From: a virus
Direction: 5' to 3' (one strand)
Length of the DNA: 29,164 bases
Virus record (IMG/VR): IMGVR_UViG_3300002460_000132
Coordinates: 1-29,164 of that record
The notes below the pieces were generated by a model, which saw nothing but the letters and a program-made list of their open reading frames with translations, did not search any database and was not told the DNA's origin. Of this stretch, positions 2,395-22,135 are shown piece by piece. The translations under genes were made by a program, and so were the position numbers. The first letter of the stretch is position 1; each line of letters begins with the position of its first letter.

Positions 2395-3150
2395 ATGAAA
2401 GTCAAATATCCTAGAGGTGAGCTTTGGTTAGGAGATTGTTTTGATCTCTTAAAAGAAGTCCCTGATAAGTCGATTGGAATGGTCTTTTGTGATTTACCTT
2501 ATGGGAAGACCAATGCAGATTGGGATAAGGTTTTACCTTTTGAGCCTCTTTGGGAGAATTTTGAAAGGGTCTGTCGAGAGAAAGCGGCGATTATTTTTAC
2601 GGCGACTCAACCATTCACATCTCAGGTTGTGATGTCGAAGAAGGAGTGGTTCAGGCATGAGTGGGTATGGGATAAAGTCAGGCCGACGGGTTTTCAAAAT
2701 GTGGCTTATAAGCCCATGGTTCAACACGAAAGTATTCTAGTGTTTGGTTCTGAAACTGTGTCTTATTCACCCATTAAGGGGAAGAGAAATAAAGGTAGAG
2801 TGAAACAGAAAACGAGAGCAGTTTCAAAACACCTTTCGACTCAATGTCAACCTAAGGATGGAGGAGAGGTGACCTTTGATACCTTTCCTAATACAATTCT
2901 ATCTTTTACGTCTGTGATGGGGCCCAAGCTAGTCCATCAAAATCAGAAACCCACGGCTCTTCTCGCCTACCTGATAGAAACCTATACGCAGAAAGATGAA
3001 ACAATTCTGGATCCGACGTGCGGAAGTGGGACAACGGCCGCGGCAGCAATTCATACCAACAGGAGATTTCTTTGTATCGAGAAGGGACTTGAAGAGTTTG
3101 AAGTCGCAAAAAACAGAATAGAGAATGAATCAGGTGGTTTTGACTTTTAA
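2395..3150 (+). CDS. N6-adenine (or N4-cytosine) DNA methyltransferase, beta-class
   Basis: A 251-residue SAM-dependent DNA methyltransferase of the N6_N4_Mtase type. The catalytic motif IV comes first (FCDLPYGKTNADWD, about residues 31-44; DLPYG in place of DPPY). The SAM-binding motif I comes last (LDPTCGSGTTAAAA, near residue 204), after the helical QKPTALLAYLIETYT. This order defines the beta class. No restriction nuclease gene adjoins it, so it is probably an orphan enzyme for protecting phage DNA or marking it. DPPY-like motifs suit adenine. Its stop overlaps the next start by one base (TAATG). Confidence 0.9.
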   Translation: MKVKYPRGELWLGDCFDLLKEVPDKSIGMVFCDLPYGKTNADWDKVLPFEPLWENFERVCREKAAIIFTATQPFTSQVVMSKKEWFRHEWVWDKVRPTGFQNVAYKPMVQHESILVFGSETVSYSPIKGKRNKGRVKQKTRAVSKHLSTQCQPKDGGEVTFDTFPNTILSFTSVMGPKLVHQNQKPTALLAYLIETYTQKDETILDPTCGSGTTAAAAIHTNRRFLCIEKGLEEFEVAKNRIENESGGFDF

Positions 3151-4193
3151 TGAGAGCCGGACCAATTCCTCACTGGGTTTGTGGTTGCGGGGCCAGAAAC
3201 AGTTTTGAGTTTGAAAACTGTCCAAAATGTGACTCAAAGAACGACAGGAAAACAAGAATGAATGAAGACTCGAAAGCAGTGGAACTTTACCGTAGATACC
3301 GACCGACGAAATTCTCAGAAGTGGTTGGACAGAAAGAAGCTGTCCAGACCCTTATGGATATGGGGAAGAGAGGAGTGATCCCTCATTCTGTTTTGTTCAC
3401 CGGACCGTCGGGATGTGGCAAGACGACACTCGCCAGAATTCTTCGCACGAAACTGAAGTGCTCCGATTATGATTTCACAGAAGTGAATGCTGCGGATTTC
3501 AGAGGAATTGATTCGATTCGAGACATTCGAGAACATATGGGGGCGGCTCCTATGTCAGGTGAATGTCGAGTCTGGCTAATTGATGAAATCCATCAACAGA
3601 CAGGGGCTGCCCAGGACTCTTTTCTGAAGATGCTTGAGGACACACCAAGCCACGTCTACTTTCTTCTAGCGACAACTGACCCCCACAAACTCAAGAAGAC
3701 GATCATCACTCGGTGTACGGAAATTCGTTGCAAGCCTATCTCTGAGACAGATTTGATAGGTCTGGTGAAGAGAGTTTCAGAAGCAGAGGGCAAAACTCTC
3801 GAAGAGAAGGTGATGAAGAGGATCGTCCAAGTTTCAGAGGGAAGTGCTAGAAAGTGTCTGGTGGTGCTTCACGCCGTCATTGGGTTAGCGACTCTTGAAG
3901 AACAGATGAAGGCGATTGAGAGTTGTGACATCGAGGGGCAGGCATTTGAATTGGCAAGAATTCTGATGAACGAGAAGGCGAGGTGGGGTGATGTGAAGGA
4001 GATTTTGAATCTTCTCCAAGAAGAGGACGCTGAAGGGTTGAGAAGAATGATTCTTGGTTATTGCAAGTCAGTTCTTCTGAAATCAGGAAATGCGAGAGCA
4101 GCGATGATAATTGAGGAGTTTCGTGAGCCTCTTTTCACTATCGGGATGCCTGGATTGGTGGCGTCGTGTTTCAATATAACCAATCCAGCGTGA
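3150..4193 (+). CDS. sliding-clamp loader ATPase (DnaX/RFC-like) with N-terminal zinc finger
   Basis: A 347-residue AAA+ clamp loader. A zinc-finger-like start (WVCGCG...CPKC, residues 9-27) precedes the conserved ELYRRYRPTKFSEVVGQ, Walker A GPSGCGKT (about 85-92), Walker B VWLIDEIH, sensor 1 LLATTDP, and a TRC arginine-finger segment. A helical lid and collar follow. Known family role: ATP-driven loading of the clamp at primer ends. An internal ATG at 3258 has a better ribosome binding site (AGGAAAACAAGA) and would give a form lacking the finger. The finger reads well in frame, so 3150 is kept. No separate clamp gene is seen here. Confidence 0.9.
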   Translation: MRAGPIPHWVCGCGARNSFEFENCPKCDSKNDRKTRMNEDSKAVELYRRYRPTKFSEVVGQKEAVQTLMDMGKRGVIPHSVLFTGPSGCGKTTLARILRTKLKCSDYDFTEVNAADFRGIDSIRDIREHMGAAPMSGECRVWLIDEIHQQTGAAQDSFLKMLEDTPSHVYFLLATTDPHKLKKTIITRCTEIRCKPISETDLIGLVKRVSEAEGKTLEEKVMKRIVQVSEGSARKCLVVLHAVIGLATLEEQMKAIESCDIEGQAFELARILMNEKARWGDVKEILNLLQEEDAEGLRRMILGYCKSVLLKSGNARAAMIIEEFREPLFTIGMPGLVASCFNITNPA

Positions 4194-6173: not shown

Positions 6174-6370
6174 AAGAAATGATAAAGACTGGGAGAGGTG
6201 AGGTTGAGGGAATCCAGAATCCTCGGTATGCTGGATCAAAAAAACCGATGAGGGACCAAAAAGAACCTGCTAGGTGAGGAAAGAAATCTCCGGGCCTCAG
6301 TGATCTACGGATGTGTGTCCCACTGAGGATGTAGTCTGCAGTTCTTCTCTCAGTCTTTTCTGATGACAGA
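6174..6370 (+). other. 197-base structured intergenic region
   Basis: Holds several inverted repeats: ATCCAG/CTGGAT, CCTCGGT with ACCGATGAGG, and the perfect CCTCAGTG/CACTGAGG described separately. A 32-codon ORF (6179-6277) is possible but has no good ribosome binding site. No clear -35/-10 pair and no T-run terminator on the + strand. ATG 6371 also lacks a convincing Shine-Dalgarno sequence. Confidence 0.5.
6295..6332 (+). promoter_or_regulatory. hairpin with CsrA-like binding motifs
   Basis: A perfect 8-bp stem CCTCAGTG (6295-6302) with CACTGAGG (6321-6328) presents an 18-base loop containing CTACGGATGT. A second GGATGT spans 6327-6332. The published CsrA selection consensus is RUACARGGAUGU with GGA in a hairpin loop, and this phage encodes CsrA 1.5 kb downstream. 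Inference only: GGATGT also occurs about a dozen times elsewhere in the window. Confidence 0.3.
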
Positions 6371-6679
6371 ATGACTCCATTCGAAGCCGAACTCGAAAGT
6401 TCTCTAACCAACGAAGAATTGTTGGTTGAACTTTTGAAATGGGTGGTTGAGAAGAATCGAATAGGAGCGATGGGAGTAACTACACCCAAAGGAGTAGACT
6501 TCCCTGATGAGTTGATTGATTCTATTGTTGAAAACGATGAGATGATCAAATGTATCATCGGAGAACTCAAAGGTAGGTTTCTAACAGATCGAGTTCGAGA
6601 TTTTCTCAACGACATTGAAAAGACGATAGACGATTACGCAATCTTGGGATGGGATGTTGGAGCTGATGAAGATGACTGA
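6371..6679 (+). CDS. acidic hypothetical protein upstream of recombinase
   Basis: A 102-residue acidic, mostly helical protein (LTNEELLVELLKWVVEKNR; DEMIKCIIGELKGRF; ending DVGADEDD). No recognised domain. It follows the structured intergenic region, and its end overlaps the RecA start by eight bases, so the two are probably translationally coupled. A role as a recombinase mediator or anti-SSB partner would fit the position but nothing in the sequence proves it. Confidence 0.7.
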   Translation: MTPFEAELESSLTNEELLVELLKWVVEKNRIGAMGVTTPKGVDFPDELIDSIVENDEMIKCIIGELKGRFLTDRVRDFLNDIEKTIDDYAILGWDVGADEDD

Positions 6680-7787
6680 CACAGACGTCGAAACGGTGAA
6701 AAAAGAACTCACTAAGAAGAAAGAGTATGAACCTCCAATCAAGAAGGAGGACTTTCTCTCATCAGGATCAACGCTCCTCAATCTAGCTGTCAGTGGAAAT
6801 CCCTATGGAGCCTTCGTAAAGGGAAAATACTTCTGGTTCGTTGGGGATTCTGATTCAGGGAAGACGTTCTTGACGATGACGGCTCTTGCAGAGGCTACGA
6901 TCAATAAGAACTTCGAAGATTATGATTTGATTTTTGACAATGCTGAAGATGGAGCACTGATGAACGTCGAAAAGTTTTTCGGTCATCGTCTCGTCAAGAG
7001 GTTGCAATCGCCTAGGATTATAGATGGACTTCCTGTCTACAGTCGAAAGATCGAACAGTTGTACTACCACCTTGATGATCGACTTGAGTCAATCGAGAAA
7101 GGAAAAGGAAAACCGTTCATTTATCTGATGGACAGCATTGACAGTCTATCATCAGAATCAGAAGAAGTCAAATTTGGAGAGATGAAGAAAGCTGATAGAA
7201 AGGGGAAAGAGATTTCAGGCATTATGACTGACGGGAAGGCTAAGATAAATTCGATGTTCATGCGAGGGATTGTGTCGAGGTTGAGTCAGTCGAAGAGCAT
7301 ATTGATAGTGATCAGCCAGACCAGAGACAATATGGGTGGTGGAAAGTTTGATCCTAAATCAGTGTCCGCTGGAGGAAGGGCTCTCAAGTTCTACGCCGCT
7401 TGTCAAATATGGTCATCACCAGCAGGAAAATTGGTCAAGACGGTGAATACCAAACCGAGACAGATAGGCATCAACGCCAAAATAGCTGTCAAGAAGAACA
7501 GAATCACCGGAAAAGAGTGGTCTGTTGAGCTGCCAATTTATTGGAGTTCCGGACTTGACAATTTGGGCAGTATGGTTGATTTCTTGGTTGAAGAGAAACA
7601 TTGGTCAGGAACGAAAGACGGAAAAACGATCGAAGCAGAAGATCTTGATTTTGAAGGTTCGCGAGACAAGTTGATTGCGTATATTGAAGAGAACAATTTG
7701 GAGATGGCTGTGACAGAGTTGGTGGTTGAGGTGTGGAAGGAAATCGAAGAAGCTTGTAGTGTCCAACGAAAAAGTCGATACTCTTGA
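6672..7787 (+). CDS. RecA/UvsX-type recombinase
   Basis: A 371-residue strand-exchange ATPase. Walker A GDSDSGKT lies near residue 58, Walker B FIYLMDSIDSL near residue 150, LIVISQTRDNMG follows, and then the L2-like SAGGRALKFYAACQIW, the equivalent of the GGxALKFY segment of RecA. Known role: filament on ssDNA, homologous pairing, recombination-dependent replication. In-frame ATGs at 6654, 6666 and 6672 compete; 6672 is chosen because GGAG (6659-6662) is nine bases upstream. GGATGT overlaps this leader, a possible CsrA contact. It sits directly before csrA. Confidence 0.88.
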   Translation: MTDTDVETVKKELTKKKEYEPPIKKEDFLSSGSTLLNLAVSGNPYGAFVKGKYFWFVGDSDSGKTFLTMTALAEATINKNFEDYDLIFDNAEDGALMNVEKFFGHRLVKRLQSPRIIDGLPVYSRKIEQLYYHLDDRLESIEKGKGKPFIYLMDSIDSLSSESEEVKFGEMKKADRKGKEISGIMTDGKAKINSMFMRGIVSRLSQSKSILIVISQTRDNMGGGKFDPKSVSAGGRALKFYAACQIWSSPAGKLVKTVNTKPRQIGINAKIAVKKNRITGKEWSVELPIYWSSGLDNLGSMVDFLVEEKHWSGTKDGKTIEAEDLDFEGSRDKLIAYIEENNLEMAVTELVVEVWKEIEEACSVQRKSRYS

Positions 7788-7804: not shown

Positions 7805-8044
7805 ATGGCCTTGGTTTTGTCACGGAAGAAAGATGAAAGCCTTGTCATTGGTGACAACATCGTAGTCACCGTGGTCGACATTCGAGGAGACAAGGTTCGG
7901 CTGGCAATCCAGTGTCCGAACGAAATTCCAGTTCACAGGCAAGAGGTGTACGAGGCGATCCAGAGAGAGAACCTTCGAGCGGCTGGTTTGGATCCTAATG
8001 CTGTTCCTCCCGTTGACAAAGGTTTCAAGAAAGAAGCTTCATAA
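7805..8044 (+). CDS. csrA: CsrA-type carbon storage regulator
   Basis: A 79-residue protein that is CsrA over residues 1-55: LVLSRKKDESLVIGDNI, VTVVDIRGDKVRLAI, PNEIPVHRQEVYEAIQ. The RNA-contacting arginines are present (Arg7 and Arg45, matching Arg6 and Arg44 of host CsrA). A 20-residue extension ends KKEAS. CsrA dimers bind GGA in mRNA leaders and usually block ribosome access. A phage copy could retune host metabolism or act on the phage's own leaders (see 6295-6332). Ribosome binding site AAAGGA. The stop codon lies inside a tRNA-like sequence. Confidence 0.93.
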   Translation: MALVLSRKKDESLVIGDNIVVTVVDIRGDKVRLAIQCPNEIPVHRQEVYEAIQRENLRAAGLDPNAVPPVDKGFKKEAS

Positions 8045-8105
8045 TTTAATGGTAGAGACGAGTTCTTATCAAGCTCGGGTATAGGTTCGATTCCTACTGG
8101 AGCCA
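8035..8105 (+). tRNA. tRNA-like element, possibly tRNA-Ile(UAU), degenerate
   Basis: A 71-base cloverleaf overlaps the csrA 3' end. Acceptor: 6 of 7 pairs (8036-8041 with 8098-8103; top pair A-C). U8 is present. The D-loop AATGGTA carries G18G19, but the D-stem is weak. Anticodon stem GAGTT/AGCTC (8060-8064 with 8072-8076) with seven-base loop CTTATCA. T-arm ATAGG, TTCGATT, CCTAC. CCA is not encoded. By structure the anticodon is TAT at 8067-8069, but C at position 37 is atypical, so it may be a decayed tRNA or a tRNA mimic. The ribosome binding site GGAG of the next gene starts two bases after its end. Confidence 0.5.
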
Positions 8106-9216: not shown

Positions 9217-10086
9217 ATGAAAACCTGGCTCCTCATCGATGGTTCTTGTTTCGCACACCGCGCCCACCACGTTCTCGGTCAACTGACTCACGAAGGGATG
9301 GGAACGGGTGTAGCCTTTGGAATGATGAGAGACATCGAAATCCAAATTGAACTTCACGGAGCATCGAAGGTCGTCCTAGCATTTGACCATCCCGGATTGA
9401 GTCTTAGAAAACAGATCTGTCCAACCTACAAAGGCAATCGACGACAAGACCTGACAGATGAAGAGAAAGAAGATTACAGACTCTTCTATGAGCAGGTTGA
9501 CAGACTGAAATCTTATATTTTGCCGTCATTGGGATACAAGAACGTTCTCGAAGTGTCTGGGTATGAAGCTGATGATATTCTAGCCCAGGTCGCTGAAAAG
9601 ATCCCAGACGATGAAGAGGGAGTGATAGCCACCACAGATAAAGATCTTCTTCAATGTCTTCGATCGAACGTGCGATGCTACAATCCAACATCGAAGAAGA
9701 TGGTCACATCAGAATCGTTCTACCAGGCATGGAATGTGACTCCCGAACAATGGGCATCAGTAAAGGCGTTGGCAGGATGTCCGACAGATAACGTGGAGGG
9801 AATCAAGGGAATAGGTGAGAAATCAGCGGCAGGTTGGTTCAATGGAAAATTGAAACAGACGAGCAAGAAGTGGTTGCTGATAAATGAGAACATCGACTTC
9901 TTGAAGAAAAATCTTCCTCTTGTGAAGCTGCCGTTTCCAGGATTAAGGCTGCCGGAGATAGTAGATGACGAGAGAACCGAGTCGAAGAAAATTGCTATTC
10001 AAGAGCAGTTAGGAATTCGGAGCAGAAGAGTGAAGGGAGTGGTGAGAGGAGTAGATGTTGTTTCCAGTGGCGGGTTTGATATCTGA
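9217..10086 (+). CDS. 5'-3' exonuclease / flap endonuclease (Pol I N-domain type)
   Basis: A 289-residue FEN-family nuclease. It opens WLLIDGSCFAHRAHH, with the first metal-binding Asp. FDHPGLSLRKQ and YKGNRRQ follow, then the acidic cluster GYEADDILAQVAEK, TTDKDLLQCL, and the helix-hairpin-helix GCPTDNVEGIKGIGEKSA. Known role: removal of RNA primers and 5' flaps. It is the third separate piece of Pol I in this window, next to the free proofreading and polymerase genes. No ribosome binding site is obvious; its ATG abuts the previous stop, so coupled translation is likely. Confidence 0.93.
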   Translation: MKTWLLIDGSCFAHRAHHVLGQLTHEGMGTGVAFGMMRDIEIQIELHGASKVVLAFDHPGLSLRKQICPTYKGNRRQDLTDEEKEDYRLFYEQVDRLKSYILPSLGYKNVLEVSGYEADDILAQVAEKIPDDEEGVIATTDKDLLQCLRSNVRCYNPTSKKMVTSESFYQAWNVTPEQWASVKALAGCPTDNVEGIKGIGEKSAAGWFNGKLKQTSKKWLLINENIDFLKKNLPLVKLPFPGLRLPEIVDDERTESKKIAIQEQLGIRSRRVKGVVRGVDVVSSGGFDI

Positions 10087-11181: not shown

Positions 11182-11627
11182 GAATTCTTGCGTTGGATTT
11201 AGCGACCCACTGCGGCTTTTCACATTCGTGTGGAGAATCAGGTTGTTTTGATTTATCTATAAAGAAAGATGAAAGTTCAGGGATGAGGCTCATTCGTTTT
11301 CGAGGGAAACTGAATGAAATGAAATCAGCAGTTGGGGTTGATCTCGTAGTATATGAGACAGCCCTTCAGATGCCCGGTGTGAGAGCAGGTTTTGCCGTTG
11401 CTTCTGAACTTCAAGGCGTTCTGAAGGTCTGGTGTGAAGATAATAGGGTGGATTTCAAACCCTACTCTCCGACAGCGATCAAGAAACACGCGACTGGAAA
11501 AGGGAATGCCAACAAAGCGAAGATGATAGAGGCCGCTCAGAAGAAGTGGCGGCGAGTCTTCACTGATGATAATGAAGTCGACGCCAGATTTCTACTTGAT
11601 CTCGCGAAGAAAGACCTAGGACTGTGA
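11178..11627 (+). CDS. RuvC-like Holliday junction resolvase
   Basis: A 149-residue RNase H-fold nuclease. The catalytic acids are in the RuvC order: ILALDLATHCG (Asp6), VVYETAL (Glu), and a C-terminal acidic helix DDNEVDARFLLDLA. The middle segment PTAIKKHATGKGNANKAKMI is the basic helix region that phage RuvC proteins share. Known role: cutting four-way junctions made by recombination before packaging. It joins the previous gene by ATGA and the next by GTGA. It fits with RecA and SbcCD in the same window. Confidence 0.88.
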   Translation: MRILALDLATHCGFSHSCGESGCFDLSIKKDESSGMRLIRFRGKLNEMKSAVGVDLVVYETALQMPGVRAGFAVASELQGVLKVWCEDNRVDFKPYSPTAIKKHATGKGNANKAKMIEAAQKKWRRVFTDDNEVDARFLLDLAKKDLGL

Positions 11628-12830: not shown

Positions 12831-13319
12831 ATGTATCTGATTAAGCATCTCTGCCATCGAACTGACATCAGTATGAGTCATCACGGATTCACGATAGATC
12901 TGTCACTTGAGTTCAAAGAGAGGGTAGCGAAGAGTGGTTTGAATCAAGAGAAGGTGGATTATCTGTTGCTACATGAAGGTCGAATTTGGTTAGATTGTGC
13001 GGGGTTTGGTGAGACATGGGATCCAGATAATTGCGGATTTGAGAAAGACGAGAACTTGAAACCAGGCCCGCGGGCAAGGCCACTCCACAGGCCCGGAGAG
13101 GATTTGAGAGTGACTTGGGGAGAATGGGGGCCTGAGCATATCTCTGTCCCTGGAAACGCCTGTGGTTTAGACATTGAACGATCTTCTTTTGGGTGTTTGT
13201 TTGAAGAGGGAATCAGCCTGCTTCCGCACAATGTTGATTCGTTGGTACAGAAGTATCTTCTTTTGATAACCTTTACGAGCCTAGCGGAATTGGTTTACCT
13301 CTTTTCAAGAGATGTCTGA
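12831..13319 (+). CDS. hypothetical protein of unknown family
   Basis: A 162-residue protein, start at ATG 12831 (GAGGA about 10 bases upstream). ATG 12873 is an alternative. The N-terminal third is helical (DLSLEFKERVAKSGLNQEKV). The middle is Trp/Gly/Pro-rich (DCAGFGETWDPDNCGFEKD; GEDLRVTWGEWGPEH) and the end is hydrophobic (LLLITFTSLAELVYLF). No recognised motif. It is followed by a 490-base stretch without a gene. Confidence 0.55.
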   Translation: MYLIKHLCHRTDISMSHHGFTIDLSLEFKERVAKSGLNQEKVDYLLLHEGRIWLDCAGFGETWDPDNCGFEKDENLKPGPRARPLHRPGEDLRVTWGEWGPEHISVPGNACGLDIERSSFGCLFEEGISLLPHNVDSLVQKYLLLITFTSLAELVYLFSRDV

Positions 13320-13332
13320 CTACTACTGTCCG

Positions 13333-13338
13333 TAAAAT
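13333..13338 (+). promoter_or_regulatory. weak promoter-like -10 (TAAAAT)
   Basis: CCGTAAAAT follows a stop codon in the way the CGTATAAT motif does elsewhere, but the hexamer has one change and the trailing AGAG is missing. If used, it would start an RNA around 13345 that covers the structured region and reads on into the SbcC N-half gene. Confidence 0.25.
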
Positions 13339-13382
13339 GTATTGCATGTGAGCACCAATCAGGTTAAAGTAGCGATGTCCAA

Positions 13383-13804
13383 ACTTCTCGCAAGAAGTAC
13401 AATTCGACATGATAGAACCCCAGGAATGGGTGCATTCCTCTTAGAGAAATTTAAGAGGCTCACTTTGCGAGGTGAGGGACAAAGTGCATCCTTTTCTGGG
13501 GTTCTCTTTTGTCGTACCGGTTGGTGCTGTCTTGAATTTCGAGGCTGTAAAACTAAACGAGCCCAGGTCAGCTTCATTGGGTTTTCTCTGCGAGACAGTC
13601 AAGGACATGAAGAGATTCATGGTGGACCACGTGATGGGATCACTTCCCAGCGATCGGGAACCAACTTCAAAAATCCGGGTTCAGTTCTCCCTTATTCCCC
13701 GGTCGGACTTGGTGCTTCTAGCACTCAAACTCTGGTAGCCGATCAGTCCTCTACCCCTAACCGTGTCTTATTCAGACTTGTCTCTACAAGTCCGTGAAAG
13801 GGGT
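13383..13804 (+). ncRNA. large structured RNA / leader candidate
   Basis: About 420 bases of stacked inverted repeats. ACTTCT/AGAAGT hairpin (13383-13398). A 10-bp perfect closing stem 13414-13423 with 13496-13505 encloses three hairpins: AATG/CATT-type 13422-13439, CCTCTTA/TAAGAGG 13437-13458, CACTTTG/CAAAGTG 13461-13486. Then CTGTC/GACAG (13527-13531 with 13594-13598), CATGAA-GAGA-TTCATG with a GNRA loop (13606-13621), GTGAT/ATCAC (13631-13643), TTCCC/GGGAA (13644-13660), CCGGG/CCCGG (13675-13702), GGACT/AGTCC (13705-13749) around GTGC/GCAC, and a final stem 13753-13804. It is not a tRNA, tmRNA or known riboswitch that I recognise. Confidence 0.5.
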
Positions 13805-13814
13805 GTTGTGATTG
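13753..13814 (+). promoter_or_regulatory. ribosome binding site sequestered in a stem
   Basis: ACCCCT (13753-13758) pairs perfectly with AGGGGT (13799-13804), closing over an inner hairpin GACTTG-TCTCTA-CAAGTC (13775-13792). AGGGG is the only good Shine-Dalgarno match for the TTG start at 13812, eight bases further on. The stem would hide it, as in translation-controlling riboswitches and thermosensors. Confidence 0.45.
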
Positions 13815-14948
13815 TTCAGTGAACTTCGCATCCAAAATTTCCAGAATCACTCCAAATTGAAGGTTGATCTGGATCCCAAGATCACGACGATCACAGGTAG
13901 ATCGGACGTAGGCAAGTCCGCAATTCTCAGGGCACTCAAATGGGTCTGCTTGAACAGCCCTCAAGGTGAATCGTTCATAAAGAACGGAGAGCCTGGGACT
14001 ACAGTTCAGCTAATCGTCGATGATAGGAAGATCGTCCGGAAGAGAGGAAAAGGAGACAACCTCTACCTGATCGAAGAGGAGGAATTCAAAGCCTTCAGTT
14101 CGAATGTGCCGGACGAGATTGCAAAGATTCTGAATGTTGGAGATAAGAATTTTCAAGGTCAACACGATTCAGTCTTTTGGTTTTCTCAGTCCGCAGGTGA
14201 AGTTTCGAGGCAGTTGAATTCAGTTGTCGATTTGGGTGTGATTGATGACTCTCTGGCGAACGTAGCGAAGAAGGTTCGACATTACCAAACCGCAGCAGAA
14301 ATCAATAGAGAAAGACTTCAGAAATCTAAGACCAGACGTGAGTCGTTGGCTTGGGTAGTAGATGCCAACAACGACTATGCAGAGGTGGAGCGGAAAGGTA
14401 GCTGTAGCCGCACAGCAACGGCTGTAGCCGCTTCGTTGCGGGAATTAGTACAAGGCATCGTGGGCAGCCAAAAGGCTATTACAGCCGCGACAGGGCAGTA
14501 CAGCGAGCTACGGTCGATGGGCATTCTAGCTGTCTCTGCAAAGAAATCTTCTGACAAGAAGATAGAGTTGTCAAAGCTGATTCAGTTTGTCAGAGACCAG
14601 AAGAAAGTTCTCGATAGGGGTGTTCCAGATATCTTGGCTTTGACGGCTTGGTACACCTCTTCGAAGACGATTGAATCTGATAGATTGAGATTGAGCAGGT
14701 TGATAGGTGAGATTAAGACACAGAAGGTAATTTTGGCTAGAGGGATACCAGACTTTTCTGGGGTTGAGTCTTTTTTGAAATCGTACAATGAAGCGAGAGA
14801 CAAGAGGATTCGACTGAGAGACTCTTTGTTGGTTCTTAGAGGATCTGTTCTGACTGCTGATGAAGAAAAGAAGACCTCAGAGCAAGTCCACAAAGAACTG
14901 GAAGAGAAACTCGAAGGCAAGTGCCCTGTCTGCGGAAAGGAATTGTAG
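13812..14948 (+). CDS. SbcC/Rad50-like ATPase, N-terminal half with zinc hook
   Basis: A 378-residue protein starting at TTG 13812; a stop directly upstream in frame leaves no other start, and MFSELRIQNFQNHSKL is a typical SbcC opening. Walker A GRSDVGKS (residues 29-36), a Q-loop-like segment FQGQHDSVFWFSQS, then coiled coil to the end, where CPVCGKEL supplies the zinc-hook CxxC (371-374). The Walker B/signature half is missing and is encoded at 19406-20041. Known role of the complex: processing of DNA ends and hairpins with SbcD. Residues about 196-233 come from an anomalous GC-rich segment. Confidence 0.85.
   Translation: MFSELRIQNFQNHSKLKVDLDPKITTITGRSDVGKSAILRALKWVCLNSPQGESFIKNGEPGTTVQLIVDDRKIVRKRGKGDNLYLIEEEEFKAFSSNVPDEIAKILNVGDKNFQGQHDSVFWFSQSAGEVSRQLNSVVDLGVIDDSLANVAKKVRHYQTAAEINRERLQKSKTRRESLAWVVDANNDYAEVERKGSCSRTATAVAASLRELVQGIVGSQKAITAATGQYSELRSMGILAVSAKKSSDKKIELSKLIQFVRDQKKVLDRGVPDILALTAWYTSSKTIESDRLRLSRLIGEIKTQKVILARGIPDFSGVESFLKSYNEARDKRIRLRDSLLVLRGSVLTADEEKKTSEQVHKELEEKLEGKCPVCGKEL
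14398..14511 (+). repeat. GC-rich inverted-repeat segment inside the SbcC N-half gene
   Basis: 114 bases (38 codons, frame kept) at about 58% G+C by hand count, clearly higher than the flanks. The ends pair: GTAGCTGTA (14398-14406) with TACAG (14499-14503) and CTAC (14508-14511) around a CGAG bulge. Inside, GGCTGTA (14420-14426) pairs with TACAGCC (14480-14486), and GCTGTAGCCGC is repeated directly at 14401 and 14421. The encoded stretch is Ala/Ser/Thr-rich. It may be an inserted element that lengthened the coiled coil. Confidence 0.4.
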
Positions 14949-15841: not shown

Positions 15842-16099
15842 ATGATATCTGAAAACCTCAAAGCCACCATTGCCGGAATTGAGTACCACTGGTGTGGTGG
15901 GTTCGGTGCTGTCTTGCAGAGCCATGAAAGGGGAGTTAAGAAAGGTGATGTGAGAATGATAGGCAAGGTGATTTTCTTCGCCTACATGGTTGAGCGTAGT
16001 GGGTGGCTGAGAGAAGTGAATTGGGTTCCCCAACAAGAAATTACTGCTGAGTGGATCAGGGAATTTAAGAAAGAAGTTTTTGGAATCAACAATGTCTAA
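15842..16099 (+). CDS. hypothetical protein
   Basis: An 85-residue protein, start at ATG 15842, one base after the previous stop, with GGAAGAG upstream. Contains HWCGGFGAVLQSHERGVKKG, then IFFAYMVERSGWLREVNWV. Alpha/beta by appearance; no motif recognised. Its end overlaps the SbcD start by eight bases. Function unknown. Confidence 0.6.
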   Translation: MISENLKATIAGIEYHWCGGFGAVLQSHERGVKKGDVRMIGKVIFFAYMVERSGWLREVNWVPQQEITAEWIREFKKEVFGINNV

Positions 16100-17009
16100 G
16101 GTGGTGGCTATCCTCTGCTCTGACCTGCATTTTTCTCACACTGCCCCCTCTTTCAGGTCAGCAGAACCTGATTGGTATGAAGCAATGAAGAGGGGAATTG
16201 ACGAACTGAAGTCGGTAGCGGAAGAACACAGAGCGCCAATCATCTGTGCTGGAGACGTTCTTGATAGATGGAACACCTCGAGTGAGCTAACCAATTTCTT
16301 GATCGACAATCTCCCTCCTCTCTATTCGATCTATGGGCAGCATGACGCTCCGTTTCATAGAGGAGAAGACCTTCATCGGTCAGCGTATGGCACTCTGGTT
16401 CGAGCAGGGACATTGAAAGAGTTGGGAAAGATTCCAAGTCGAATTGACAGCTTCTGGGTACATCCCTTTCCGTGGGGGAAAGAGATTACTCCTCTGGAGA
16501 GTCTGCAGAGAGGTTATCTTCACTTGGCAGTGGTTCATCGGTATATTTGGGACAGGCCTCAGAATTCATATCCAGGGGCGGAAGAGACGAAGAGGACGTC
16601 AGCCTACGAAGAATCTTTGAAAGGGTACACGTCTGCAGTATTTGGCGATAATCACAGAGGCTTCAACACTAAAATTGGTTCTTGCAATGTGATGAATTGC
16701 GGAACCTTCTTCCGTAGAAAATCTGATGAGATTATTTACAGACCGATGATAGGACTTCTTCATTCTGATGGAGTGATTGAGCCTCATTATCTAGACACGT
16801 CGAAAGATGTTTACGTTGAGAATCCAATCAAGAAGAAGGTTGATGATGATCGGACAGAGAGTTTTTTGAAAGAATTAGAAGCTCTTGGTTCTGATTCATT
16901 AGACTTTCGAGAGGCAGTGAATAGATATTTTGATCAGAACGAAACAGAGCCTCTGATTAAAGACATGGTCTTGGAGGCCATTGTCAATGGCGGAAAAGAA
17001 CGCTCCTGA
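16092..17009 (+). CDS. SbcD/Mre11-like nuclease
   Basis: A 305-residue calcineurin-type metallophosphoesterase of the Mre11 group. The metal-binding motifs are in order: CSDLHFSH, CAGDVLDRW, YGQHDAPFH (GNHD equivalent with Gln), AVVHRYIW, and VFGDNHRGF. The acidic, helical end (from about residue 240) is the expected ATPase-contact region. Known role: exonuclease and hairpin endonuclease in the SbcCD/Rad50-Mre11 complex. It lies between the two halves of the split SbcC. The upstream TTG 16080 is not used; ATG 16092 overlaps the previous gene. Confidence 0.88.
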   Translation: MSKVVAILCSDLHFSHTAPSFRSAEPDWYEAMKRGIDELKSVAEEHRAPIICAGDVLDRWNTSSELTNFLIDNLPPLYSIYGQHDAPFHRGEDLHRSAYGTLVRAGTLKELGKIPSRIDSFWVHPFPWGKEITPLESLQRGYLHLAVVHRYIWDRPQNSYPGAEETKRTSAYEESLKGYTSAVFGDNHRGFNTKIGSCNVMNCGTFFRRKSDEIIYRPMIGLLHSDGVIEPHYLDTSKDVYVENPIKKKVDDDRTESFLKELEALGSDSLDFREAVNRYFDQNETEPLIKDMVLEAIVNGGKERS

Positions 17010-19016: not shown

Positions 19017-19518
19017 CATCAGATATGTCTGGAAATGTGACATCTGTGGAGCAGAGAAGCAATTGATTGTAGCTGATGAAGATTACCATCTTTGTATGAA
19101 TGATAGGATAATGAGGCCGAATCTGTTGCCTACTTCTGACGATGGTTGGGGTTGGAGATGGGTTCGAAATATGTTGGTTTGTGACAGACACAAGGTTCAG
19201 ATTCTTGCAAATGTGACATCAGACCCAAATCAATCGGTTGAGGTAGTAGATAAACCAAACACAGAGATGGCAGGGTTGGTTGATTGGAAACTAATTGACT
19301 CTGCTCCAGATGATGCTTTGATTCTTGTTGGCTGGAAGACGAAGGCTTTTGGAGTGATAATGAAATGGGTGTACATCACCGCCTTGAAACACGAGGGAAA
19401 GTGGTATGATGCAGCAGGCAACTCCTTCAATTTCTCAGTCGACGGACCTATCTACTGGAAAAATCTCCCTAGTCCGCCAGAGGTTGGACAGGCTTCTGGT
19501 CGAGTTCAATCAGGTTGA
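19006..19518 (+). CDS. zinc-binding N-terminus plus DUF551-like domain
   Basis: A 170-residue protein. Residues 8-50 carry YVWKCDICGAEKQ and later CDRHK, a likely treble-clef or ribbon metal site. Residues about 90-160 are WKLIDSAPDDALILVGW, KHEGKWYDAAGN, PIYWKNLPSPPE, the DUF551-like pattern common in phages. Start ATG 19006 has GGAGAAGG upstream. The SbcC C-half ORF begins about 110 bases before its end in another frame, so one of the two boundaries may be wrong. Confidence 0.7.
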   Translation: MGLSIRYVWKCDICGAEKQLIVADEDYHLCMNDRIMRPNLLPTSDDGWGWRWVRNMLVCDRHKVQILANVTSDPNQSVEVVDKPNTEMAGLVDWKLIDSAPDDALILVGWKTKAFGVIMKWVYITALKHEGKWYDAAGNSFNFSVDGPIYWKNLPSPPEVGQASGRVQSG

Positions 19519-20041
19519 TCTCCAATGGAAAGAAGACAAATCAGCTTTTGTCGAGTCTGAGAATTTCTTGACTGCGGCGGAAGAAGCTCAGAAAATTCTG
19601 CAGGTGGTAGCTCAGGCAATTCAAGAGCAGGTCCATGATAAGATAGCCGCAGTCGTGACTCGATGCCTTGAGACAATTTTCGACGAACCTTATCAATTCA
19701 AAATAGAGTTTGAGAGGAAGAGAGGCAGAACAGAAGCCAACCTGATTTTTGTCCGTGGGGGATTGGTGTTGACTGATCCGATCAATGAGGCAGGAGGAGG
19801 AGTGATTGATGTAGCGGCCTTTGCTCTTCGATTGGCTTGTCTGATTCTTGAGAGACCTATTCGGAGAAGAGTGTTGGTTTTGGATGAGCCGTTTTCAAAG
19901 GTTAGGGGGAGTCAGAACAGACAGAGAATGAGAGAGTTGATCGAGTCGCTGGCGGAGGATTTTGGTGTCCAATTCATTTTGAACGTGGACGGGGACGTCT
20001 ACCCGGAATTCATGTTGGGTACTGTGATCGAGTTAGGTTGA
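19406..20041 (+). CDS. SbcC/Rad50-like ATPase, C-terminal half
   Basis: A 211-residue protein holding the second half of an SbcC head: a short coiled-coil return (RLDRLLVEFNQVDLQWKEDK), the signature motif EAGGGVIDVAAFALRLA, Walker B RRVLVLDEPFSKV, and the D-loop-like SQNRQRM. There is no Walker A and no zinc-hook CxxC; both are in the gene at 13812-14948. ATG 19406 has GAGGGA eight bases upstream but overlaps the DUF551-like gene by 113 bases; a TTG or CTG near 19484-19500 is an alternative. Together the two proteins should rebuild one SbcC-like ATPase. Confidence 0.8.
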   Translation: MMQQATPSISQSTDLSTGKISLVRQRLDRLLVEFNQVDLQWKEDKSAFVESENFLTAAEEAQKILQVVAQAIQEQVHDKIAAVVTRCLETIFDEPYQFKIEFERKRGRTEANLIFVRGGLVLTDPINEAGGGVIDVAAFALRLACLILERPIRRRVLVLDEPFSKVRGSQNRQRMRELIESLAEDFGVQFILNVDGDVYPEFMLGTVIELG

Positions 20042-20383: not shown

Positions 20384-22135
20384 ATGATTTTGACACTGAA
20401 GGCACCAATTGTCACAGCTCTTAAAACAGATCTGGCTCGACTTCACATTTTTGAAATAGACAAAGATGGAGATATTGTCTATAAAAAGAATGGTAGGAGG
20501 CACAATTTCAATTATGAGAAAGAAGCTGAGCTTGATCTTTCAGCGTTGACGAAAGGTGAGACTCAGAATCTAGTCACTCTTCTTGAGACGGCGAAGGTTC
20601 ATGGATGTAAGGTGGCAGCGTCTGATGTGAAAAAATACCTTCGAGCGTCGGAAGAAGGCGTTGAAAACGTCAGGGCAAGAACCTGTCGACAAGCGGCTTG
20701 GATGCTAGAGCATTTCTTCGCTCGACTTCCTCACCACGCGATCTTCAGCCGCGATCAATATGGAGGGAACAGCTACAGCGGTTACTATGTAGGTGACGTT
20801 GATTTCGAGCCGACAAAACCAGGCACCAGTTCTCGAGATCGGCAGGAAGAATATTGTCAAATCGATCTTTGGCACATTGAGAACGATTGTCGAAAGAGCG
20901 GCGGTCTTAGACTTCATCGAGGTGATGTCCTTGAGATGACGTGCCTTGAGATTCTCGACGGGATGGGATATGTGTCTGAAACTCCTCGACTGATGGAGAG
21001 GCTGCGAACAGAGACTGAACTGTTCTACAAGAGAAGTGAGCAGATTGGTCTTCAGTGCAAGGCAGTTGGATTGGGTCTGGTTGATCTTGACGATGCTTCG
21101 GAGTCTAGTGACAGAGGTTACGGTCGAAACAAGATCAAACTTGACCATTTTGGCGAATCAAGAGTGGTGGTAGACGTCTACCAAGAAACCGACAAAGAAG
21201 AGAGAAGTGGTCGAGGTGGTGGAGAGGTTGATCCCTATCGATGGCACAATTGGAATATGAGGTTTCATACACCTTCTGAGGATGAGATCGTCCGTCACCT
21301 TGAAGCAGATGAAGACACTGCTGAGCCAACGGATGTTGATATTCCAGTTCATCCTCTTGTGCCTTGCTATGATTTAAAAAGACACAAGAGATTGAGAATT
21401 CACGTCAATAACCTTACGCCCTATCAGTATGACAAGAACGTCTCAGAAAGGCTTGTTTTGCCTGACAGGGATTGGAAGATGGTGAACCTGTTGGTTGATC
21501 ATTCTTCGAACGAATTCAATGATATTGTGGCGAACAAGGGTCAGAGCATGAATGTCCTGTCTGTTGGAATTCCAGGGACGGGTAAGACAGCGACAGCAGA
21601 AGTCTTTGCGGAATTCAAGGAACGTCCGCTCTACACGATCCAATGCAGTCAACTCGGGTTGGATGCTGATCAGGTTGAGAAGAATCTGTCAATCATTATG
21701 ATGAGAGCAAACAGATGGAACGCCGTTCTTCTTCTCGATGAGGCAGATGTCTACATTCGGAAACGCGGAACTGATTTGAATCAAAATGCCATCGTTGGGG
21801 CATTTCTGAGAGTTCTTGAGTATGCGAGTTGCATTCTGTTCATGACGACGAATCTTGAGGATTCAGTTGACGATGCAATTACGAGTCGGTGCATCGCTCG
21901 ACTTCATTACGGACCTCCTGGACCTGAAAATCAGAGTAAGATCTGGAGAATCTTGTCTGGGTTGAATGGACTGACGATGACTCTTGAGGAGATTAAGAAG
22001 GTCACAACAAGACATCCAAACCTTACCGGAAGAGATGTGAAGAATCTTCTCAAGCTGGCGTCGTTTGCAAAGGCAGATAAGATGATCGACGCTGAGGCGG
22101 TTGAATATGCTCTCCAGTTCAAGCCGACGGAGTGA
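20384..22135 (+). CDS. AAA+ ATPase with a large novel N-terminal region
   Basis: A 583-residue protein. Residues about 385-580 are a classical AAA+ module: Walker A GIPGTGKTATAEVFAE (about 395-402), LDADQVEKNLS, Walker B AVLLLDEADVYIRKRG, FLRVLEYASCILFMTTN (sensor 1), TSRCIARLHYG (arginine finger), and a helical lid. This resembles the FtsH/BCS1/proteasome branch rather than clamp loaders. Residues 1-380 are not recognised: a small start, then a region with EEGVENVRARTCRQAAWML and a Cys/His-poor, charged core. No protease site. A remodelling or protein-unfolding ATPase is inferred. Confidence 0.8.
   Translation: MILTLKAPIVTALKTDLARLHIFEIDKDGDIVYKKNGRRHNFNYEKEAELDLSALTKGETQNLVTLLETAKVHGCKVAASDVKKYLRASEEGVENVRARTCRQAAWMLEHFFARLPHHAIFSRDQYGGNSYSGYYVGDVDFEPTKPGTSSRDRQEEYCQIDLWHIENDCRKSGGLRLHRGDVLEMTCLEILDGMGYVSETPRLMERLRTETELFYKRSEQIGLQCKAVGLGLVDLDDASESSDRGYGRNKIKLDHFGESRVVVDVYQETDKEERSGRGGGEVDPYRWHNWNMRFHTPSEDEIVRHLEADEDTAEPTDVDIPVHPLVPCYDLKRHKRLRIHVNNLTPYQYDKNVSERLVLPDRDWKMVNLLVDHSSNEFNDIVANKGQSMNVLSVGIPGTGKTATAEVFAEFKERPLYTIQCSQLGLDADQVEKNLSIIMMRANRWNAVLLLDEADVYIRKRGTDLNQNAIVGAFLRVLEYASCILFMTTNLEDSVDDAITSRCIARLHYGPPGPENQSKIWRILSGLNGLTMTLEEIKKVTTRHPNLTGRDVKNLLKLASFAKADKMIDAEAVEYALQFKPTE

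Follow-up and report, generated by a model that had tools for sequence, protein, structure and literature searches.

The analyzed window comprises the whole of virus record IMGVR_UViG_3300002460_000132 (29,164 bases, positions 1 to 29,164), with nearly all genes carried on the + strand. It encodes a polymerase-only PolA (444-1862), a clamp loader (3150-4193), a UvsX-like recombinase (6654-7787), a separate exonuclease (9217-10086), ThyX, SbcD, and a split SbcC. DNA polymerase I is therefore divided between the polymerase-only gene and the separate 5'-exonuclease gene, a division conserved in relatives. SbcC/Rad50 is encoded in two pieces, separate N-terminal and C-terminal halves that flank SbcD (13812-14948, 16080-17009, and 19406-20041), and the SbcC-N/SbcD/SbcC-C order is kept in about 35-38 relatives. 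A CsrA gene (7805-8044) is followed by a low-scoring tRNA-Ile(TAT) (8035-8105), which overlaps the end of CsrA. The phage lineage has over 280 relatives in IMG/VR, and no close isolate was found.

The longest gap of the window, at 13320-13811, is flanked by genes on one strand, the next gap noticed being 6174-6370. The upstream gene (12831-13319, + strand) ends before the gap and encodes a conserved 165-aa phage protein with a WGEWGPEHISVPGNACGLDL motif and homologues at loci L018-L021. Although no Pfam or PHROG family was matched, sequence comparison indicates that this gene is real, with family members in four other phages and a C terminus matching theirs. The WGEWGPEHISVPGNACGLDL-motif protein family is spread over diverse phages, including one of 230 kb. 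Downstream of the gap, sbcC-N (13812-14948, + strand), the N-terminal half of the split SbcC/Rad50, begins with a TTG start codon, has PHROG exonuclease/SbcC matches, ends in the zinc hook CPVCGKEL, and occupies the same place in the gene order of relatives. The interval that holds the gap is variable-length cargo between ruvC/exo and sbcC, beside a Cro/C1-type regulator. No promoter or terminator of its own was detected in the gap.

Codon-usage scores were negative in all six frames of the gap and below those of real genes. A gene classifier for which 14 records from this group of phages served as training data (cross-validated AUC of 0.96) assigned 0.08-0.29 to the + strand open reading frames, as compared with 0.66-0.98 for annotated genes scored alongside, and 0.04-0.12 to two minus-strand frames within the gap. 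A further minus-strand frame (13743-13964), which overlaps the 3' edge of the gap and is mostly antisense to sbcC-N, scored 0.64, most simply because it runs opposite a real gene. These scores bear out the original prediction that some 490 bases lack a credible gene. A protein-coding gene, small or decayed, in an open + strand frame (13342-13797 or 13472-13738) appears very unlikely, even though one frame is open for 153 codons, a length matched by just 4 of 2000 base shuffles, and the 13472-13738 frame has a gene-like base composition by codon position. Against such a gene, in addition to the classifier scores, neither a homologue nor gene-like composition was found for the 153-codon frame, the 13472-13738 frame has no homologue or good start, and there is no well-placed ribosome-binding site. 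Likewise, no conserved protein was recovered in either open + strand frame: neither matched Pfam or PHROG, tblastn of 13445-13738 against phages gave nothing significant (best E = 4), and tblastn of both frames against relatives produced no significant match.

The minimum free energy (MFE) of the whole gap was -172.2 kcal/mol as compared with -144.0 ± 6.9 kcal/mol in dinucleotide shuffles (z = -4.1), clearly below zero. In a 250-base scan of the whole window, 13376-13625 was the strongest of 232 + strand windows with z = -8.4, where the runner-up reached -4.6. When the gap was tested in parts, 13345-13535 gave z = -7.1 and 13536-13811 gave z = 0.04, the 3' part being unstructured except for its last hairpin. 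The stretch 13349-13531 had a + strand MFE of -81.2 kcal/mol (z = -7.5), and the fold boundaries are sharp at both ends of the core. Since only the 5' part of the gap carries the fold signal, the object is about 178 bases (13351-13528) and not 490. Thus, of the large structured non-coding RNA that was originally proposed, the structure holds but the large size does not, and in place of about a dozen perfect inverted repeats the repeat finder gives five pairs of at least 8 bases. On these folding statistics, 13351-13528 stands as a genuine orphan RNA domain with a strong fold, predicted far beyond chance in one sequence only.

The predicted core is a closed + strand domain (13351-13528) with one side hairpin in addition to its five helices. 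Helix P1 (13351-13364 with 13516-13528) has 13 bp with one bulged A and a pair probability of about 0.8-0.99, and pairs the AGCACCAATCaGGT region with ACCGGTTGGTGCT. Inside P1, a single-stranded stretch is followed by a 6-bp side hairpin, ACUUCU-CGCA-AGAAGU (13383-13398, in both MFE and centroid structures), and then by the P2 rod (13405-13426 with 13493-13514), which has 5+2+13 bp with 1x1 mismatches and includes the perfect 10-bp stem AGAACCCCAG/CTGGGGTTCT. P3 (13428-13436 with 13483-13491, 9 bp) leads from P2 into a three-way junction with P4 (13437-13458), a 9-bp hairpin with a GAAA tetraloop at 13446-13449, and P5 (13459-13476), a 7-bp hairpin with a UGCG loop; the unpaired GGACAA at 13477-13482 closes the junction of P3, P4, and P5. 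Both the 10-bp stem and the GNRA-capped hairpin described beforehand are therefore present, but the junction, formerly taken to be four-way, is three-way in the predicted fold. Forcing the AUGUC:GACAU pairing of the four-way variant was 3.7 kcal/mol worse than the three-way fold, and an alternative junction with this pairing may form at that cost.

The two strands of the core differ in folding strength, with -62.0 kcal/mol (z = -4.6) on the - strand as compared with the -81.2 kcal/mol (z = -7.5) of the + strand. A covariance model (R1) built on the 13405-13514 stretch scored 128.9 bits on the + strand and 42.1 bits on the - strand. The + strand fold contains seven G-U pairs; of its three 1x1 mismatches, each is U-U or U-C and none is A-C, the form that a G-U pair on the other strand would take here. 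The pairing therefore suits a + strand RNA, and the asymmetry supports such an RNA over a DNA palindrome, the small counts making this support short of proof. A DNA-level element, either a replication or packaging inverted repeat or a MITE-like insertion with RNA folding as a by-product, is consequently unlikely, despite 30-nt arms that are 80% complementary at the DNA level, the variability of the interval between relatives, and strong palindromes elsewhere in related phages (L006, L022, and L053). Besides the strand asymmetry, no direct repeat longer than 8 nt (two copies) was found, which leaves no iterons, and no second copy was found within the record or in phage or plasmid collections.

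Fold energies are near-equal on both strands for the strong hairpins of L006 and L022, and likewise for the palindromic repeats of L058, as they should be for DNA palindromes. At 5740-5870 of L006, three consecutive near-perfect hairpins lie in the same ruvC-sbcC interval and are strand-symmetric (z = -6.7 and -7.3). L022 holds a perfect palindrome at 20409-20465 with arms of ∼26 bp (GCATCCATGGACACGGCAGCCATG...), close to where a sigma-like open reading frame begins (z = -7.7), and L058 has tandem dispersed palindromes (GTCATGACAGATGTCATGA and variants) at 11190-11370, between uvsX and sbcC-N (z = -8.0). The ssb-uvsX intergenic region of relatives is enriched in folded windows, with z < -3 in 28 of 735 as compared with 102 of 13,783 overall; the counterpart in the window itself, between the SSB-like gene and uvsX (6174-6370), folds weakly (z = -1.3).

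Searches of Rfam at gathering and permissive thresholds returned nothing credible for the gap. Together with the fold z-scores and the non-coding tests, this agrees with the earlier view of a structured non-coding RNA of no recognized family. The scale of that RNA had been likened to GOLLD and ROOL, structured non-coding RNAs of phages and prophages that are often found near tRNAs (PMC12286853). The likeness in scale was not upheld, as the core is ∼180 nt, many GOLLD members are >800 nt (PMC12286853), and neither covariance model matched, GOLLD giving no hit even at E up to 10. GOLLD and ROOL form multi-chain RNA cages and often adjoin tRNAs, whereas the core has one three-way junction and the sole tRNA of the window is 5.2 kb distant; a core of ∼178 nt, its fold predicted without pseudoknots, also falls short of their very large, many-helix, pseudoknotted architecture. 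Given that the phage encodes CsrA, a CsrB-type CsrA sponge was considered and rejected, since GGA motifs are not enriched: about seven GGA were counted by eye in the 490 bases, which is the chance level, and most are paired or in stems.

Packaging RNA of the phi29 type is a phage RNA of <200 nt arranged around a three-way junction, and the core is similar on each of these points. Unlike that RNA, it sits in a block of replication and recombination genes with no packaging gene recognized beside it, and no Rfam match to phi29-type pRNA was found. Retron RNAs run from an outer stem through a short hairpin to a long one, an order of elements that the core shares within a total length of ∼180 nt. 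Accordingly, the core was considered as a retron-like msr-msd RNA that lacks its reverse transcriptase, with P1 as a1/a2 and a UAGC near the outer stem. This is the least probable of the readings: the candidate guanosine is several bases off the outer stem, the UAGC being set back in an internal loop, Rfam produced no match, and, unlike in retrons, no reverse transcriptase was found beside the core, with PF00078 absent from the record and from five relatives and no retron reverse transcriptase motif in six frames.

About 100 IMG/VR and genome loci of relatives were gathered by SbcC, SbcD, and UvsX protein searches, all of them distant (best UvsX identity of about 58%) but with conserved gene order. 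No homologue of the RNA was found in these loci by blastn, nhmmer, or a single-sequence covariance model, or in 46 whole viral records by the covariance model, an empty answer that, having no positive control, is a weak negative. Phage and plasmid DNA similarity searches gave just one 29-base chance match, and the 15-base junction pattern occurred in 20 stretches across IMG/VR, none of which (0 of 20) had the fold. Loci of relatives of the upstream 165-aa protein contained no match to the RNA model, and the RNA therefore does not travel with that protein. A 28-base match of 93% among 395 genomes of one phylum (E = 7e-5 per genome) was judged to be chance; the locus fetched for it gave weak model scores (≤14 bits), and the matching bases were not visible in it.

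Hardly any sequence separates ruvC from sbcC-N in the nearest relatives, with 20 bp between them in L022, 8 bp in L024, and 21 bp in L026 (8-35 bp across these three and L023); in this phage the two are set apart by 2.2 kb of small genes and by the RNA. More generally, the interval before sbcC-N in relatives ranges from 3 bp to about 5.9 kb. This variation among relatives places the RNA in variable cargo. Moreover, as the nearest relatives have no such RNA between their nearly adjacent ruvC and sbcC-N, sbcC does not need it, and no conserved association of the RNA with sbcC-N was seen in relatives, whose loci and whole records were searched with the RNA model.

The main rival to a role in cis is a small phage RNA of ∼180 nt that stands alone; it would be transcribed within the cargo interval or released from it and would act in trans, for example by binding a host or phage protein or by countering a defence. 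Its own long closing stem and a fold that stops sharply at both ends would suit such an RNA, as would a variable cargo interval beside a Cro/C1-type regulator, where accessory functions are expected. It ranks just below the cis role, and we consider it possible and nearly as likely, with two points against it: no site resembling a promoter or terminator was found for it, and no relative was found elsewhere in the phage, plasmid, and IMG/VR loci and viral records that were searched. The more specific proposal, by which the core represents a new ∼180-nt class of stand-alone phage RNAs and is the first of them to be seen, residing in ruvC-sbcC cargo and having a host or phage target in trans, is somewhat more doubtful.

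A second structure lies at the other end of the gap, where a hairpin, TACCCCT...AGGGGTG (13752-13805, + strand; z = -2.7 for 13750-13812), is predicted over the sbcC-N Shine-Dalgarno sequence AAAGGGG (13797-13803). There is moderate evidence that this hairpin would cover the Shine-Dalgarno sequence. The locus thus resembles a cis-acting leader in being on the same strand as sbcC-N, upstream of it, and structured at its ribosome-binding site. The operators of T4 genes 32 and 43 and the hairpin at the Aeh1 mobE ribosome-binding site are likewise folded RNAs 5' of a DNA-metabolism gene, and hairpin pairing with the ribosome-binding site is common to those phage leaders and this locus. The phage leader RNAs are small, however, and several have a known protein ligand, whereas the main domain here is larger and lies 283 bases before the start codon.

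Tentatively, the most likely reading is that the core is an intercistronic RNA domain shaping the processing or translation of the sbcC transcript. The same-strand neighbours and the absence of a detected promoter or terminator fit a piece of a longer message. In this mechanism, 13351-13528 would be an independently folding + strand domain between two same-strand genes of the phage transcript, and it would be transcribed within a polycistronic message running into the sbcC half-genes. The core would act in cis, setting the processing or stability of the message, and would separate the upstream accessory genes from sbcC-N, with the hairpin at 13752-13805 limiting access to the sbcC-N ribosome-binding site. 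Its double-stranded rod is of a kind that RNase III could cut. Typical RNase III sites in phage polycistronic messages are simple hairpins; the core is like these processing stems in that genes sharing a transcript are separated by a long double-stranded rod, and unlike them in having a three-way junction and a separate closing stem. A cis role in the processing or translation of sbcC-N, as we infer it, is supported by the hairpin covering the Shine-Dalgarno sequence and by phage precedents (PMC3014915). Against this role, the core ends 283 bases 5' of the sbcC-N start with a mostly unstructured stretch intervening, and no homologue occurred among the searched sets, hence no sign of conserved structure. 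Since the RNA is absent from relatives, any cis role would be particular to this genome.

Collectively, these data describe a well-defined orphan as it stands, with strong support for its structure from a single sequence. Confirmation would make it a new phage RNA of an undescribed family, in a lineage with >280 IMG/VR relatives, and a concrete target for probing.
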